64,000 nt of DNA from Ochromonas danica (Eukaryota > Sar > Chrysophyceae > Chromulinales > Chromulinaceae): the NCBI GenBank assembly GCA_015146655.1, contig VKHL01000068.1, positions 86,088 through 150,087 on the forward strand, given 5' to 3'. Positions 14,822 through 52,668 of this stretch are shown piece by piece. A program made the translations under genes and the position numbers. A model generated the notes under the pieces. That model was not told where the DNA came from and ran no database searches. It saw only the letters and a list, made by a program, of their open reading frames with translations. How positions within the stretch are numbered: position 1 is the first letter of the stretch; each line of letters starts with the position of its first letter.

Positions 14822-17800
14822 ATGGAGGATCAAGATTTGCATCATAAATTTAAAGATTGGCTGACAATCTTACAACATGCATTTCAGGTGAGTTAGGAAC
14901 ACTTTGTCTTCCTCAGTCAACCCTCTCTCACACTTCCTATCCTCTTCTAAAAGACTTCTAAATCAGAAGAAAACGATAAGAATGATATAGAAGAAGCTGA
15001 CAAGTTGATTGATAGTATTGAATCCACACTCAAAGCTGATGAACAAAATCTGCCCTCATGGATCTTGAGACGACCGAGTCTATCACAGAGTTTAGTCTCT
15101 ACTGCTGATGATTTTAGACGTAGTTTAAAGCAGATTTGCTTACCAAATATTGCTAATCGATTTCCTTCTCTAAAGGATGAGGTTAGTCGATGTCAAGAGA
15201 ATTTCCTTGAAGTCGATATGGGACCTGAGCAAAAGTCAAGTGAGACTGAGATTGAAGTAAAGACCTTTCTATCAGTAAAGCTAGGAGATAGAAGTAAGGC
15301 CTCTTGAGTATGTTCGTGTTGATTTCTGTTGATTGATTGATTGTTTGGATGGATGATGACAATAGGTTCTGTGGCAGCATTATGTAAGCTTGCAGATTAT
15401 GCACATAGACTTGGAGTTGTCCAAGAGAAGGATAAAGCCAAGGTTGAAGCCTTAGTAAAGAAAGAAGAGAAACGTAAGCAGAAGTTTGAAGCAGATTTGC
15501 TTCGCTGTCAAGAGAATAGGAAAAGACGAAGGAGCGGTCGTACATAAGGCATTGACTTTGGCTAATGATCGCCTTAAAACTCTTGATAAAACACTTCGTG
15601 AAGCTACAGAAGAGGAGGAGAAAGCAAGAAAGGTATCTTCTAATTGTCTTATTCTATGCTCTTTGTCTAATCAAAATGTTCAACCAGGCGTATGAGCTGG
15701 CCATGCAAAAAACCAAAATAGTGCGCAAACGAATCTCATCGTTTGAAAGTTTTCATGAGATGTTGAATACACAAGCTGAGATTATGTGTAAAGTCAATGT
15801 TTTGCGTAGATCTGTTGCAGAATTTAATCATCAAAGTGCAGCACGGAGATTACAAATGCTTGTCTCTCTAGCCAACTATATGAATACCAACTTACAGTCA
15901 TTCATGCAAAATGAAGTTATGATAGAGTCTCATTCACTTTTCGAGTTTCTAACAAGTCAATTCTATCAAGTGGGAGAGATTTTGCGAAACTCAGCCAATG
16001 ACATTGCCAGTGCCCAGGAATCATTAGTGCTCATTCTCCGTATTGGCTTAGAGACTTTAAGAGTATGGAGAGGATTAGGCGCTGATGAATTCTACTCCAA
16101 TCTGATGTCTGAAGTATCTGGCTTTGAGAACTTCCTCAGGAATTCATTGGGACAATTGACCAACTCTTCTTCTTCATCAGTTATTACTCAATCGTCTGAT
16201 TCTTCCCAGGAGAAGCCACAGACGATTGTGCTTTATTATGATAAGATCTTCCATGATACTCCAGAAGATCATGTGGAGAACCAAGCTCGTGTCTCTATTT
16301 CCCTCAAGTTGTTGAAAAAACGTGTCCATCATCAAGAGGAGTCTTTGCGCTCTGTGGTACTTCATAATTGTGATGATATTGTTTCTCCTCCAGCTTGGTG
16401 TCTACCTCTCGTTCACAGCCCTCAATATTTGAGTAGACTGGCTGACCTGGCAGATGAAGCCAAGAAAGAAGATCTCTATGTCCCTCTTGAGTTTGATACC
16501 GAGTGGGAGAGCTTCGGCGAAAGCAGCGACTCTGAGAAAGAAGAAATAGATACCAAGAAACACCGAAGACGGCGCAGCAATACACGAACAAAGAAGTTGA
16601 GCTATGTCTTCGATGTTAACAATGAGATCGGCTCTGAACTGGGGCAGCAATCGTCAAAAATTCTGCGCAAAATATTGACACCATGCAAGGTTGATATGGC
16701 TTTAGCCAATGTTGTTAGTAGGACTGAATCATTAGCCACATCATTATCACGGCAGCATGCTGTTAAGTCGGAAACAGCAACTGAGCGTCAATCCACTGAG
16801 AAGTCTTCGCGAAGTTATCGCGTGAAAACACCATACGGTGTTGTCATCACTACGCAAGAGATTCCCACCTCGAAGAATGGAATGGTCAAGGTTGTGTTCG
16901 ATTGGGGAGCGACAGGATACCTCAATGCTAGTATCGTGGAGAGAATGCCGTCGAAGACGACCACTTCTCGACCAGCACCAACTCCTTCAACAGACAACCA
17001 ACCAGACCGCGTGCAACCTTATCAAGATCCTTCCACAAGATATGTACACACTGATCTTAAGCTTCACAAGCTGTTTCGTCGTATTCTTGATCAAGTCAAG
17101 GTTCAGCGCCTTCTATTGGACAAGATCGGTGTCAAAGATGCAATCCTCAGCCTTTGGATGCATGGCCGTACTTCTGTTGGCGTCACTGCCAATGTCGAAG
17201 TGGGCATCAAGGCTTGGTTGAAACGTTACGATTTAGCGAAAGTGGATGCTCTGCTTGCGGAAAAGGAGCAACGCATGCTGCCCCCTCAACCACACATTTT
17301 CCTTGAGGAACTAGAGCGCTTAAAACTTCCTGAGCCACCCGAAGTATATCCTATAGCACCTATCAGGATTGCAAGTATGGAGAGCGACTATAAACACCTT
17401 AATGCTCTGCCTGACTTCAGTAGTGCTGAGGCCCTTAGGGAGGATGCTCTGAAGTACTATCTGGCTCGTATTACGAAGAAATCGGGTGGCACACGTGTTA
17501 GTGGCCCTCGTAAACCTCGTAATCAAGGTGCTCAAGGGCAGAGCGAAGCTGCCAGTCGTCGAAAGTCTGATCCCAACAAATCTGGTGGACGCTCTCGCGC
17601 ACCTCGGAAGGTGGTTTGGGGTCGCAATAATGAACCACCACTGGCAGCTTCTGGCCTCTCCCCCAAGGCATCTCGCAGCATGAGTGAACTACTGTGCTAT
17701 TTGATGTACGTGTTATCAATCAGCTTGAATTTGAATCAAGGAAGCTTCGCAAATGATTTGACCAGACGGAACAATGCGTTTGTTTCCCAAACAATGATCT

Positions 17801-18896
17801 CTTCATGGGTACGATACAGGATGGCTCCTAACATGACCAAACTTGTGAATAAGCTTGTCTATGATTGGGTTGTTTTTCACAAGAGATTACTTGCCCCCGA
17901 AAACTTGCTGAAGTTTGATGAACTCGTTGCACTCTATGAAGAGCTTGATGCACTCAAGTATTTCGACAAGCTGGGAGAAGACTCAGCAGAGAATCTTTTG
18001 GTGCCCGATGTCAAAGAAGAGACAGGAGAGGACGCCTTGTTTACTGAAGAAATGAAAGAAAGTATGGAAGAAGAGGTTGAAGAAGAGATGGATGAGATTC
18101 CTAACCCTAATTCATCTTTTGTTCTTGAAGTAAAGGCAGAAGATCACCTTCCAGATGAAGTCGCTGCTGTAGATGACATTGCTGTAGACGCAGTCGCTGT
18201 GGATGAAGAGGATGATGGTGATTTGCGCAGCCTTGAAGGAGAAGCGCCTAATTCATCTCATGCTGTAGCGAATTCATCGCTTGTGCCTCAACACATGCTC
18301 TTTGGAACGCAACCAAGCGATTCTCCTCCAACCACTGATGCTCCAACCACGATTGATATGGAAATGGAGGAGAGACCTGCATCGCCTCTTGCGGTTGAGC
18401 CGTTACCTTTTACTCCGTTCACTTCACTGGAAATTAGTGATATCGATCTTCATGCGGCAGCAATGAAGGAGATTGAACGCCGTCATTTAACTCACTCTTA
18501 CACGGCGATGGAGGCTACTTGTGTATCATATCGTCTGACTCAACCCATGCTGTCCAAGTTTAGTAAGGATGCGGTACTCTCAACAACACTCAAGGCTCGC
18601 ATGGTTCGAGCTTCTTTAGTAAAGTGAGTTGTGGTCTTGTTGGTCTGGTTTGTTCTTGTATGGTTCTTATTCGATTGTTTTTCTTCTATAGCTGGCTAAA
18701 CTATTCTTGCCCTCGTCCAGTCTCTCAGAAAGATGAGAATTCATTCTGTTCTAATTGTGGCATATCCAAATTTTCCTATCCCAATCAACTGACTTTCCTC
18801 GGTCATGTTGGTCAATGTGGCAAGATTCGTCTTGATAGCCCCGCTGCGGCCCACTTGATCAAATTGGACGAGGAAGAGGAAGTGATTGAGGAATAG
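14822..18896 (+). CDS. Split histone deacetylase, N-terminal part (to in-frame TAG)
   Basis: Exons 14822..14887, 14954..15293, 15366..15473, 15520..15632, 15688..18623 and 18692 onwards join in phase. The third intron is only 46 bases. Residues 1-370 are helical with a coiled coil near 170-240. At about 388-485 comes the N-terminal third of an HDAC domain: YYDKIFHDTPEDHVENQARV and later LVHSPQYLSRL. The rest of that fold is missing here and resumes at 19790. In between lie an SH3/tudor-like unit with VKVVFDWGATGYLNAS, a helical unit ending KAWLKRYD, a basic linker, an acidic region and a CxxC...H...C cluster (CSNCG...HVGQC). TAG at 18894 ends the frame after VIEE, but the same frame stays open to the next donor at 19012. 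I believe this and the next entry are one gene. Confidence 0.75.
18894..18896 (+). other. In-frame TAG inside the HDAC reading frame
   Basis: Counting from exon 18692, this TAG is in frame, at about codon 1256 of the assembled reading frame. The 115 bases after it remain open in the same frame, contain no ATG in that frame, and splice at a consensus GTGAGT (19012) in the right phase to the PHD-finger exon. Other genes in the window, such as those ending at 32259 and 38258, use TAG as a normal stop, so the code is not reassigned. A sequencing error, an allele, readthrough or a recent nonsense change are all possible. Confidence 0.7.
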
Positions 18897-20934
18897 ACTC
18901 GCCCCTCTCGTGGACGCAAGAGTTCCAAACATGCACAGAAAGCTCAAGAAGAGAATGATGATGGTGATGTTCTTACAGACAATGATGACAGCGCCAACCT
19001 GGAGGTTTTAGGTGAGTGATAACAATATGACATCTTATTGCTTCCTCAAGCGGCTGCTAATGTTGCTCATCCTTCGTGCTTAGAGGATATGGAGAAGCAG
19101 CTCGATAACCAGATTGTTTCCATTTTGCGAGACACTTTCAGTCTGTCGGAGCCTTATGATAGATGTAGAATGTGCGGAGAGTTGATTGCCGTCGACGACA
19201 CTACGCTTCGTTGTGCCACTTGTCCATGTGTGTATCATGTGCGCTGTGCGGGTAGACAGAGCAATGAAAGTGGCTCGGTGTGGCATTGTACTTCTTGCCA
19301 ATCAAAGGGAATCGAGCATGCCGAAGAAGTCCTAGGATTAGACAACAAATCTCAATATTGCGTGCATGGTGCACTTCTTTTTCTTTATGTTCATACCGAT
19401 CGATGTTGGAAAAAATCTTTCATTTTAGGTGTCCATTCTGCCGAACCTTCTCTTGTATTAGTCAAATGGATGGATAGAGGGCAGAGTTATAAGTGGGTTG
19501 ATATTAATGCCGTGCGAATTCTAAAAGCTGCCAAGTCATCCTCTGGCGCTTCGGAGGGGCCGCGTAAACGTCGTAGAGAATCGATAACTACCGAGAGAAA
19601 TGTGATAAATGGGAAACGGCAGCGCACTAAGTTTTCTTCTTCTGTATTGCATGCTATGGACGGGGACTCTGATGAGGACTCTGACGGACGAACATCACGG
19701 CGGAGAAGTTCGAATGGTCGTCGCACTTCTTCAGCAAAGACTAATGTTGATGATACTGGAATTAAGATGAGCAATGCCGGCGATGGAATGACAGATACAT
19801 ACATTGGTAGTCAGTCACTTCAAGCTGCTCTATGTACGGCTGGCTCCGCCTGCAGGGCTGTAGATCTGGTGATGGAAAGGCCGGGATCGAATGTTTTCGT
19901 TTGTACTCGTCCTCCTGGGCATCACGCCGGCCGTTATGGCTGCACTAGAGGATGTCTAAGCACTGGGTTTTGCCTCTTAAACAATGCTGCTATTGCTCTT
20001 ACCTACGCACGTGTTCGCTATGGTGTGCAGCGCGTTGCGGTGGTTGATATCGACGTCCATTTTGGTAATGGAACTGCTGAAATTTTGCGCTCTGATCCGA
20101 ATGCTTTTTTCGCCTCAGTTCATATGGTTTATGGTACTCAAAATGATGGTCATTTTGATGATAATAAGGATGTGGAAGCTTTTGGCTTCTATCCTGCTTT
20201 TATGGGCCGAACAGAGGTCATGGCTAACTATGTCAGTGTGGGTATTCAGCCCAGCAACTTCAGTGACGTCATTGAGAGACACTCGCGGCTACATAAAGCT
20301 CGCGCTGAAGATGAAGAGGAGAGTGAGGTTGAAGTGGAAGCGGAAGCAGAGGTGGAAGGGGAGGACGATGATGACAGCATTATGTCTCTGGAGGATGGTG
20401 CTGAGGCTGCTGTTCCTGCTGCAACTGCCGCTAGCGAAGAGAAAGCAAAGGAAGAACAGCACACAACATCTGACTCAAAACCTTCTTCTGCAGAGTCTGT
20501 TGCTGGGGGTGTAACATTTATTGGCCCTGAAGGATATCTTGCTGCTCTACGAGATGTCATTATTCCCAAGATGGAAGAGTTTAAGCCTGAGTTATTAATT
20601 ATCTCAGCCGGATTTGATGGATATTTGTCTGATCCCCTTGGGAATGAACTGAAGTTATCGCTTGATGATTACACCCAAAGCACGTTAATGGTAAGGTTTT
20701 CTTCTACTTTGCTTTGAGTTTGTTTGTTGACCTTACTCGATGTGTTTTGTGTTTTCTTAGCTTACATCCAGTATGGACAGGTTAGCTAGTCGAGCAGCTG
20801 GTCGTCCTTGTGGTGGCCGAGTCATCAGTTTGTTAGAAGGTGGTTATGATACTTCCCCCTACTCGCTTGGTCTGGCAAGATGTGTAGATGCTCATGTTGG
20901 GGCTTTACAACAGACGGGTGTTGCTCAATCGTAG
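18897..20934 (+). CDS. Split histone deacetylase, PHD finger and catalytic part
   Basis: Coding sequence is 18897..19011, 19051..20690 and 20761..20934; the first in-frame ATG after the TAG is at 19089. A PHD finger comes first (CRMCG...CATCPCVYHVRC...WHCTSC), then a tudor/PWWP-like stretch, then a basic linker. From about 19790 the deacetylase domain resumes: DTYIGSQSLQAALC, RPPGHHAGR with the catalytic His pair, DIDVHFGNGTAE with zinc ligands, SAGFDGYLSDPLG and finally LLEGGYD with the catalytic Tyr. These are class II HDAC signatures with all active-site residues kept. An acidic Glu/Ala loop of about 75 residues interrupts the domain. The part lacks the first third of the HDAC fold, which is found at 16219-16520 in the preceding entry. 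The enzyme should remove acetyl groups from histone lysines in the nucleus. Confidence 0.85.
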
Positions 20935-50180: not shown

Positions 50181-52668
50181 ATGAAGTTCTTGGTTCCAAC
50201 TTTGGTTTTGTTGCAATTCGGGGCTTTCCTTGGACTCTCTACCTCCACCACTGCTCCGATGGTAACTTTCGTCCCGCACCTCCTTGTTTCAAAACATTTC
50301 CTATCTGATCTTGCAATAATTTTCGAAATAGAAACGCGAAAAATTTGACAATTTTGATCGTCTATTCTCTTCGAGTGACCCATTCGAAGGTCTGACAAAG
50401 AATGCGAACCCGCCTCTTGTGTCTGAAGGCAGTTCTTCTGCTTTACGCAAAGGACTCCGATTAGAAGGTGTCCCACCAGGACCTTCAATGAACCCAACCT
50501 TCACTCCGACATCGAGAGCCCCAACTCACGCTATGACCGATGCCCCTTCTAGAGCTCCAACTCACGCTACGACCGATGCCCCTTCTAGAGCTCCAACTCA
50601 CGCTACGACCGATGCCCCTTCTAGAGCTCCAACTCACGCTGTGACCGATGCTCCTTCTAGAGCTCCAACTCACGTTACGACTGATGCTCCTTCTAGAGCT
50701 CCAACTCACGCTACGACCGATGCCCCTTCTAGAGCCCCAACTCACGCTACGACCGATGCTCCTTCTAGAGCTCCAACTCACGCTACGACCGATGCTCCTT
50801 CTAGAGCTCCAACTCACGCTGCGACCGATGCCCCTTCTAGAGCTCCAACTCACGTGACTACCGATGCTCCTTCATTTGCTCCGTCTGTGGTTCCCAGCGC
50901 GATTCCTTCCTTTGCTCCAACTCACGCTGTGACTCATGCTCCTTCCAGAGCTCCAACTCACGTGACTACCGATGCCCCTTCTAGAGCTCCAACTCATGCT
51001 GTGACCGATGCTCCTTCATTTGCTCCGTCTGTGGTTCCCAGCGCGATTCCTTCCAGAGCTCCAACTCATGCTGTGACCGATGCTCCTTCCTTTGCTCCAA
51101 CTCACGCTGTGACTCATGCTCCTTCCAGAGCTCCAACTCACGTGACTACCGATGCCCCTTCTAGAGCTCCAACTCATGCTGTGACCGATGCTCCTTCATT
51201 TGCTCCGTCTGTGGTTCCCAGCGCGATTCCTTCCAGAGCTCCAACTCATGCTGTGACCGATGCTCCTTCCTTTGCTCCAACTCACGCTGTGACTCATGCT
51301 CCTTCCAGAGCTCCAACTCACGTGACTACCGATGCCCCTTCTAGAGCTCCAACTCATGCTGTGACCGATGCTCCTTCATTTGCTCCGTCTGTGGTTCCCA
51401 GCGCGATTCCTTCCAGAGCTCCAACTCATGCTGTGACCGATGCTCCTTCCTTTGCTCCAACTCACGCTGTGACTCATGCTCCTTCCAGAGCTCCAACTCA
51501 CGTGACTACCGATGCCCCTTCTAGAGCTCCAACTCATGCTGTGACCGATGCTCCTTCATTTGCTCCGTCTGTGGTTCCCAGCGCGATTCCTTCCAGAGCT
51601 CCAACTCATGCTGTGACCGATGCTCCTTCCTTTGCTCCAACTCACGCTGTGACTCATGCTCCTTCCAGAGCTCCAACTCACGTGACTACCGATGCCCCTT
51701 CTAGAGCTCCAACTCACGTGACTACCGATGCCCCTTCTAGAGCTCCAACTCATGCTGTGACCGATGCTCCTTCATTTGCTCCGTCTGTGGTTCCCAGCGC
51801 GATTCCTTCCTTTGCTCCAACGCTTGCTCCTTCCTTGTTACCCAGTAGTGCGTTTCCGAGTCGTATGCCTTCAAAGGCCCCTTCCGTCACTCGTTATCCT
51901 ACAGCTAGTAGTGCTCCCACCGCTACTGTTGCTCCCACCAACTCTTTTGCTCCGACGCCAGCTCCTTCCACTCGAGCTCCCACGATAACACGCAGCCCAT
52001 CATTTGCTCCTTCCAGAAAACCAACTGCATCTCCATCCCGTTTTCCTACCACTCAAGTCTTCCCAGTGCTTGTTGTATACAGTAACATTGCATTAATGGT
52101 AGATTATCAGCGGGACTTGAATGCTCAAGAGCAATATGCTGTTCGTTTGGCTCAGTCACGTATTTTAAATATCGGCGTTAGTACTGTCGCATATATCCGC
52201 ACAGATCGCATTTTCATCACTTCAAGTCGCCGCAGGCTTGGTGCAAATGTAGCGAATTATACTGTTGCGGTGACCTCAACATCACTGGCGCTGGTGGATT
52301 ATCCTGAGTTTGTCGACAATGTTACAGCCCTCTTCAATCAAGTCTCCGACACAATGACTCAAAGTGTTAGTGACAGCACTGAGTTTACATTACAGTTGGG
52401 AGCTGCTGCTGTTGATGCTGATGCTACCAACTTTATCAATGTCACTATTCCTTCTACTTTGCAGTTTGTTACATTGTCGTTGAACAGCCCACCGACGTTC
52501 AGCCCAACCAACCATCCTGGACATCACCACCATAGACTCACCAAAGGGGAAGTTGCTGGTATTGTAATTGGCTCTGTTGTCGGAGCTGCTATTTTGGCCT
52601 ATATCATCTATATCGTACTCACTCGATTAGTGATCAAAAACACCTACAAAGTAGCCAGCAGCGGCTGA
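50181..52668 (+). CDS. Cell-surface repeat glycoprotein, type I membrane
   Basis: Exons 50181..50261 and 50332..52668 give 805 residues. The first exon is a signal peptide (MKFLVPTLVLLQFGAFLGLS). After a short head comes a repeat zone of about 450 residues. It begins with about ten 12-residue units (SRAPTHATTDAP type) and goes on to a 60-residue higher-order unit repeated four times. The zone is rich in Thr, Ser and Pro, so it should be heavily O-glycosylated. A globular domain of about 150 residues follows (from FPVLVVYSNIALMVDYQRDL), then a His patch and one membrane span (VAGIVIGSVVGAAILAYIIY) with a short tail. Such proteins are common in ochrophyte cell coats. The exact repeats may be collapsed or expanded in assembly. 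Confidence 0.85.
50509..51830 (+). repeat. Nested tandem repeat, 36-bp and 180-bp units
   Basis: From 50509 to about 50870, 36-base units encode SRAPTHATTDAP variants. From 50940 to about 51710 a 180-base unit recurs with almost perfect identity; for instance the 60-base blocks starting at 51001, 51181, 51361 and 51541 are the same, as are those at 51061, 51241, 51421 and 51601. The unit length is a multiple of three, so the frame is kept. The identity points to recent unequal exchange or slippage. Confidence 0.95.

Follow-up and report, generated by a model that had tools for sequence, protein, structure and literature searches.

A class II histone deacetylase gene of Ochromonas danica whose catalytic domain is probably interrupted by a long, reader-bearing insert

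The gene and its two deacetylase parts

The window analysed here is a stretch of 64,000 nucleotides (C68:86088-150087) from the genome of Ochromonas danica, which comprises 31.2 Mb in 337 contigs. Between positions 15688 and 20934 of its forward strand lies a gene that carries the sequence of a class II histone deacetylase (HDAC) in two separate parts, an upstream N-part and a downstream C-part, with a PHD-type finger between them. As listed in Table 1, three introns with ordinary ends bring both parts into one frame of 1,679 codons, in which the terminal TAG is preceded by one other stop, an internal TAG at 18894-18896. The first exon lies inside an open frame (15556-18627, 1023 amino acids), and its coding score was +217 bits relative to background in frame 0 and negative in the remaining two frames. 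An earlier, sequence-only reading of this stretch had put the two HDAC parts in the same spliced frame; the introns agree with this, and the internal TAG, which that reading did not mention, breaks the frame.

Table 1. Features of the HDAC gene, in window coordinates
Feature	Start	End	Strand	Description
Exon	15688	18623	+	N-terminal helical region, HDAC N-part, first half of insert; ends in phase 2
HDAC N-part	16219	16494	+	PF00850 positions 1-60; HVENQARV and LVHSPQYL motifs
Inserted stretch	16495	19793	+	About 1,050 residues spliced; presumed L2 loop; from profile matches and alignment with 11 HDACs
Possible Tudor/SH3-like unit 1	16813	16947	+	By eye only
Intron	18624	18691	+	68 nucleotides, GTGAGT...TATAG; T 54%
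Junction exon	18692	19011	+	Contains C2HC cluster and in-frame TAG
C2HC-type Cys/His cluster	18747	18818	+	CSNC...HVGQC; from sequence
GT...AG stretch around TAG	18882	18938	+	57 nucleotides, multiple of three; coding-like
In-frame TAG	18894	18896	+	Between the HDAC parts
Intron	19012	19083	+	72 nucleotides, GTGAGT...CTTAG
Exon	19084	20690	+	PHD-type finger, possible Tudor-like unit 2, HDAC C-part
PHD-type finger, C4HC3	19158	19310	+	CRMC...CATC...H..C...WHCTSC
Possible Tudor/chromo-like barrel 2	19374	19526	+	Low-confidence strands 97-104, 107-114, 123-127, 136-139
HDAC C-part	19794	20690	+	DTYIGSQS, RPPGHHAG, DIDVHFG, SAGFD
Acidic low-complexity insert	20304	20489	+	Inside HDAC C-part
Intron	20691	20760	+	70 nucleotides, GTAAGG...CTTAG
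Last exon	20761	20934	+	HDAC end, catalytic Tyr (LEGGYDT), terminal TAG

The N-part begins with QTIVLYYD at 16219 and continues through HVENQARV (16270-16293) and LVHSPQYL (16408-16431) to VPLEF, which ends at 16494. The C-part opens with DTYIGSQS at 19794, followed by RPPGHHAG (19908-19931), DIDVHFG (20046-20066), SAGFDGY (20604-20624) and, in the last exon, LEGGYDT (20833-20853). The sequence-only reading had seen both parts at these places and had stated that neither is complete and that together they make a whole HDAC, and the profile matches agree: the stretch 19086-20717 matched positions 63-263 of the Pfam HDAC profile PF00850 (158 bits, E 4.5e-46) and the last exon matched positions 258-295 (E 0.015), so that with positions 1-60 in the N-part the whole catalytic domain is present across the parts. 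Its description of the N-part as the first third of the fold was too generous, the N-part being 60 of the 298 profile positions. Its claim that all catalytic residues lie downstream was borne out, as the C-part motifs RPPGHHAG, DIDVHFG, SAGFD and LEGGYDT keep the His-His, Asp-x-His and Asp that we take to be the zinc ligands and the Tyr that we take to be catalytic. The sequence is class II rather than class I, as judged from RPPGHHA and from the PDB sequences that the C-part matched best (HDAC6, HDAH and HDAC10), and the class IIa mark, a His replacing the catalytic Tyr, is absent from LEGGYDT. A search of NCBIfam gave no match.

When the N-part and C-part were joined without the insert, the construct scored 190.0 bits as a single stretch over PF00850 positions 1-295, compared with 172.8 bits for the C-part without the N-part and 176.9 bits (positions 44-295) for the joined construct with the letters of the N-part reversed. 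Therefore, the N-part contributes 13-17 bits beside the C-part.

The N-part match was also evaluated with a control profile of 11 other HDAC front parts, taken from four spirochaete loci and from seven of the about ten other HDAC loci (13 other matches) of the same genome; the alignment behind the control profiles was built with the window sequence included, which was then removed, and the scores are to be read with this caveat. With this profile the first exon ranked first among the 352 window open reading frames (ORFs) of at least 60 amino acids (10.3 bits, the next scoring 5.9), and the N-part scored 15.2 bits versus a maximum of 10.5 among 2000 shuffles. With a profile of four class II paralogues only, the values were 13.2 bits and a maximum of 7.9. 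The mean z score against other HDAC front parts was 2.0 for the window N-part and 1.2-4.1 for seven intact HDACs, six from the same genome and one from a spirochaete (parts cut by hand, means including pairs with the window protein). By this sequence measure the front region is weak among intact HDACs too, and the window N-part appears equally HDAC-like.

The front part is undivided and in one frame at seven other HDAC loci of the genome (L001, L002, L004, L005, L006, L008 and L010), in six of them also by Pfam. The HDACs L003 and C51 match in one span from profile positions 4 and 11, respectively, L003 having eight stops inside; that of C6 matches only from position 39, its front part not having been looked for. 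L008 and L010 are class II HDACs with ankyrin repeats and resemble the window HDAC in the C-part and in an HHAGxxG-type loop, with 48 of 85 residues identical between the C-parts of L010 and the window protein. They differ from it in that the front part lies in one Pfam stretch, 3-155 and 2-149, respectively. A single paralogue nearest to both parts was ruled out, the C-part being nearest to L010 and the N-part to L004.

Two side observations concern these relatives. L010, like the window C-part, has an acidic stretch, which lies ahead of its SAGFD part. Upstream of L008 (C13:42767-46360), in the same frame, is a THAQKYF-type motif that we take to be Myb-like (no Pfam test was made of that part), and L008 is possibly another fusion of a DNA-binder to an eraser.

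Contents of the insert

When aligned with 11 HDACs, the window protein is broken after the VHSPxY helix and before the DT motif that leads to the RPPGHH strand. We take this loop to be L2, on the active-site rim, and by eye the DT motif appears to correspond to D759-T760. In the sister HDAC L008 the loop is lengthened at the position of the insert. The separation of about 1,000 residues given by the sequence-only reading is close to the value in Table 1.

The finger at 19158-19310 has the C4HC3 ligand pattern of a PHD, with a W ahead of the last pair, so that the PHD finger of the sequence-only reading stands by its pattern, at a score under the Pfam cut-off: 17.5 bits (E 0.0044) against PF00628, for which the cut-off is 24 bits. 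The same stretch scored 20.2 bits against C1_1 (cut-off 26.5). In the PDB its top match was the CHD4 PHD (E 0.015), and 45 of the 49 matches at E ≤ 10 were PHD proteins by name, for some of which the PHD content is our assumption; the closest by sequence, weakly, were the PHDs of CHD4, ZMYND8 and PHF21A. By eye there is no obvious aromatic cage, and therefore the finger would be likelier to read unmodified H3K4 than K4me3.

The Cys/His cluster of that reading was also found, as a C2HC type, and its region matched Zn_Ribbon_1 under the cut-off (E 0.099). The Tudor/SH3-like units are tentative: no Tudor or SH3 match was obtained in Pfam at E ≤ 10, a limit within which the HMMER filters drop most matches above 0.1, and none by sequence in the PDB, the second unit being seen only as low-confidence strands. 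The stretches 17071-17232 and 17689-17883 have by eye a helix-turn-helix or CUT-type look, with no profile match.

DT occurs at both edges of the insert (FDTEW and TDTYIG), a motif too short to assess, and local alignments were unconvincing. A mobile-element origin was considered and rejected, as there was no sign of one, the protein of the first exon matching only itself in the genome. A genome search with 18400-20000 returned only the window itself and a fragment of the HDAC gene, 83 bases long and antisense, at the end of C121 (L014 1511-1593, equal to 19497-19579 with one mismatch). The fragment adjoins a PI3-kinase-like gene (by eye) and is a partial duplication or an assembly artefact.

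The internal TAG and the alternative readings

The 114 bases after the internal TAG had an in-frame coding score of 13.9 bits, greater than that of 89% of 421 coding windows drawn from ORFs that also trained the coding model, and reached by 0.45% of 1122 overlapping presumed non-coding windows. The coding signal on both sides indicates that the TAG most likely lies within an exon of one gene. The most likely interpretation is that it reflects strain variation, a recent change or an error of sequence within an otherwise coding gene, and not a gene boundary; a read-through stop or unusual splicing may be further options. Removal of the GT...AG stretch around the TAG as an intron was rejected because its composition is coding-like and not intron-like (T 19% versus 46% in five introns), and skipping of the exon 18692-19011 was rejected because the loss of 320 bases would shift the frame (by hand).

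Reassignment of TAG as a sense codon was ruled out by the kinase matches of the genome. There were 145 of these, from the 123 of 336 candidates that were scored, and 26 held a stop; nine of the stop-bearing matches were examined: each of the eight in which the only stop was a TAG, and one in which it was a TAA. The TAG fell within the first four codons, at an exon edge, in seven of the eight and in an intron-like stretch in the eighth (L028), and the TAA was the last codon but one. In the window, TAG terminates 5 of 23 ORFs (counted stop to stop, gene ends not being proven).

Considering the complementary profile matches, the shuffle and ORF controls, the comparison with intact HDACs and the coding signal of the junction exon together, we favour, with a probability of about 0.62, a single class II HDAC gene whose catalytic domain would be interrupted in L2 by a reader-bearing insert of about 1,050 residues. 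This is also the best-supported form of the claim in the sequence-only reading that a reader is built into the eraser's domain, less the Tudor units, which are unproven, and with a frame that the TAG breaks.

Several results weigh against a single interrupted gene. The TAG means that the gene is not one uninterrupted ORF. The excised N-part scored 11.9 bits against PF00850 positions 1-60 (E 0.14), which is not significant library-wide, and the full protein with the insert kept scored 175.3 bits in three stretches, 2.5 bits above the C-part alone. In pairwise comparisons of the N-part with the 11 HDACs, only L004 beat 300 of 300 shuffles, six HDACs gave nothing, and the scores with L005, L008, L002 and L006 were equalled by 2, 10, 17 and 27 of 300 shuffles, respectively. 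L010, the nearest HDAC for the C-part, had no similarity to the N-part (z -0.8), and a phmmer search of the PDB with the N-part returned no chain at E ≤ 10. No relatives with the interrupted layout were found in viral contigs, and four prokaryote loci proved to be undivided HDACs. The predicted structures were also of low confidence, with a mean predicted local distance difference test (pLDDT) score of 36.9 for 824 amino acids of the first exon alone, which is of no use, and 42.2 for the exon 19086-20690, modelled with four spirochaete HDACs. The best fold matches of the latter were HDACs, including HDAC6, HDAC10 and bacterial HDAH/lysine deacylases; both models cover separate exons and so bear on neither side of the joining of the HDAC parts.

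The strongest competitor, although unlikely, is a dead gene or strain-specific null allele, in which the TAG leaves at most a short protein of the N-part, the first half of the insert and the C2HC cluster, without the catalytic part. The presence of the TAG, its not being a sense codon in the kinase matches examined and the failure to find a second complete copy of the HDAC region in the genome are as this explanation would have it. However, the coding score persists on both sides of the TAG, the catalytic residues and intron ends are intact, and the exons of 15688-20934 are otherwise stop-free, bar the terminal TAG. We regard it as very improbable that there are two head-to-tail genes, of which one ends at 18896, its N-part resemblance being a relic, and the other starts from the ATG at 19089 and encodes the PHD, the Tudor-like unit and the C-part. 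The resulting 192-base gap would not be absurd where local spacing is short, the first ATG of the next long ORF lying about 386 bases beyond 20934, but the 114 bases past the TAG are coding in the same frame and reach a phase-matched intron, and the second HDAC would lack the first 60 profile positions, exactly those found upstream.

There is a similarly slim chance that the upstream match is accidental and that the gene encodes a PHD-HDAC with a truncated or diverged HDAC start, as in oomycete proteins with an N-terminal PHD. The weak stand-alone and pairwise scores of the N-part fit this, as do the published oomycete class II HDACs in which, as far as the portion of the source seen goes, the PHD is described as N-terminal (PMC5112689). 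Against it, the N-part ranks first of 352 ORFs, exceeds 2000 of 2000 shuffles and lies in the right order and at the right boundary, and intact HDACs are equally weak in this region.

Upstream of the HDAC gene, coiled-coil-like exons were seen at 14823-15695, with a switch of frame near 15470-15550. A lesion at this break was considered and rejected, as a 46-nucleotide intron (GTAAGC...AATAG, 15474-15519, found by hand) would join the frames, and additional 5′ exons of the HDAC gene probably lie within 14823-15632. Elsewhere in the window, 50332-52668 encodes a long PSRAPTHATTDA-type repeat protein, and some window proteins have plastid-type leaders and PSRAPT repeats, which we take to be typical of ochrophytes. 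The genome has 47 chlorophyll-binding-protein matches, which mark a photosynthetic eukaryote; four of them (G000 C224:8673-16382) have equal scores and an equal spacing of 2,407 bases and may be a tandem array of recent origin or a repeat produced by assembly.

Possible function and comparison with known systems

If the gene is a single interrupted one, the N-part and C-part would together form a single barrel, from which the insert would loop out next to the substrate groove. The PHD could then dock the tail of histone H3 and offer acetyl-lysines, either of that tail or of one nearby, to the catalytic zinc, so that deacetylation would be tied to reading. An active, reader-gated enzyme of this kind is less certain than the single interrupted gene itself. 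More doubtful still, and in our view improbable, is that binding of the tail by the PHD opens or aligns the mouth of the active site, with the TAG giving both a short form that lacks the catalytic part and, through read-through or splicing, a full eraser. Readers and erasers generally occur as distinct subunits of one complex, as in Rpd3S and NuRD; a PHD inside the HDAC fold would, if confirmed, bring the two functions together at the rim of the active site and offer a natural means of testing whether HDAC activity can be gated by loop L2.

HDAC6, HDAC10 and bacterial HDAH/lysine deacylases, which the C-part matched best by sequence in the PDB, presumably have an ordinary uninterrupted domain, unlike the window HDAC. 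Human class IIa HDAC4, as described in the portion of PMC6294515 consulted, has a structural zinc-binding subdomain that binds a partner. Like the window insert it is an extra zinc-bearing element at the same active-site rim, and it is part of the fold; the HDAC4 subdomain is short, in an enzyme with His for the catalytic Tyr, whereas in the window HDAC the Tyr is kept and the insert, with its separate fingers, runs to about 1,050 residues.

The sequence-only reading could name no characterised HDAC of this layout, and a literature search, with subscription papers and preprints outside its scope, found no HDAC that carries a reader within its catalytic domain. A list of class II HDACs of marine stramenopiles (PMC3145265) did not contain the term 'PHD' in the text searched, nor did the searched text of a study of oomycete domain fusions (PMC2705460) contain 'deacetylase', 'HDAC' or 'PHD'. 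The claim of novelty is narrowed by published class II HDACs of oomycetes, some of which combine PHD, two AP2 and Med27 domains and others of which have ankyrin repeats (PMC5112689, seen in part). The oomycete PHD-AP2-HDAC-Med27 proteins are like the window protein in combining a stramenopile class II HDAC with a PHD, and in the window protein AP2 and Med27 gave no Pfam match at E ≤ 10, a search whose filters drop most weak matches. In that account the PHD and AP2 form an N-terminal cascade and Med27 is C-terminal, whereas in the window protein the N-part of the HDAC precedes the PHD. Domain scans may report a PHD followed by an HDAC and miss an N-part, as Pfam did for our first exon (977 amino acids), in which no HDAC match was found at E ≤ 1; the published oomycete PHD-HDACs are therefore worth re-examining. 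Thus, as far as these partly seen sources go, the combination of a PHD with a class II HDAC has a stramenopile precedent, and what is unusual here is the probable position of the reader inside the HDAC domain.

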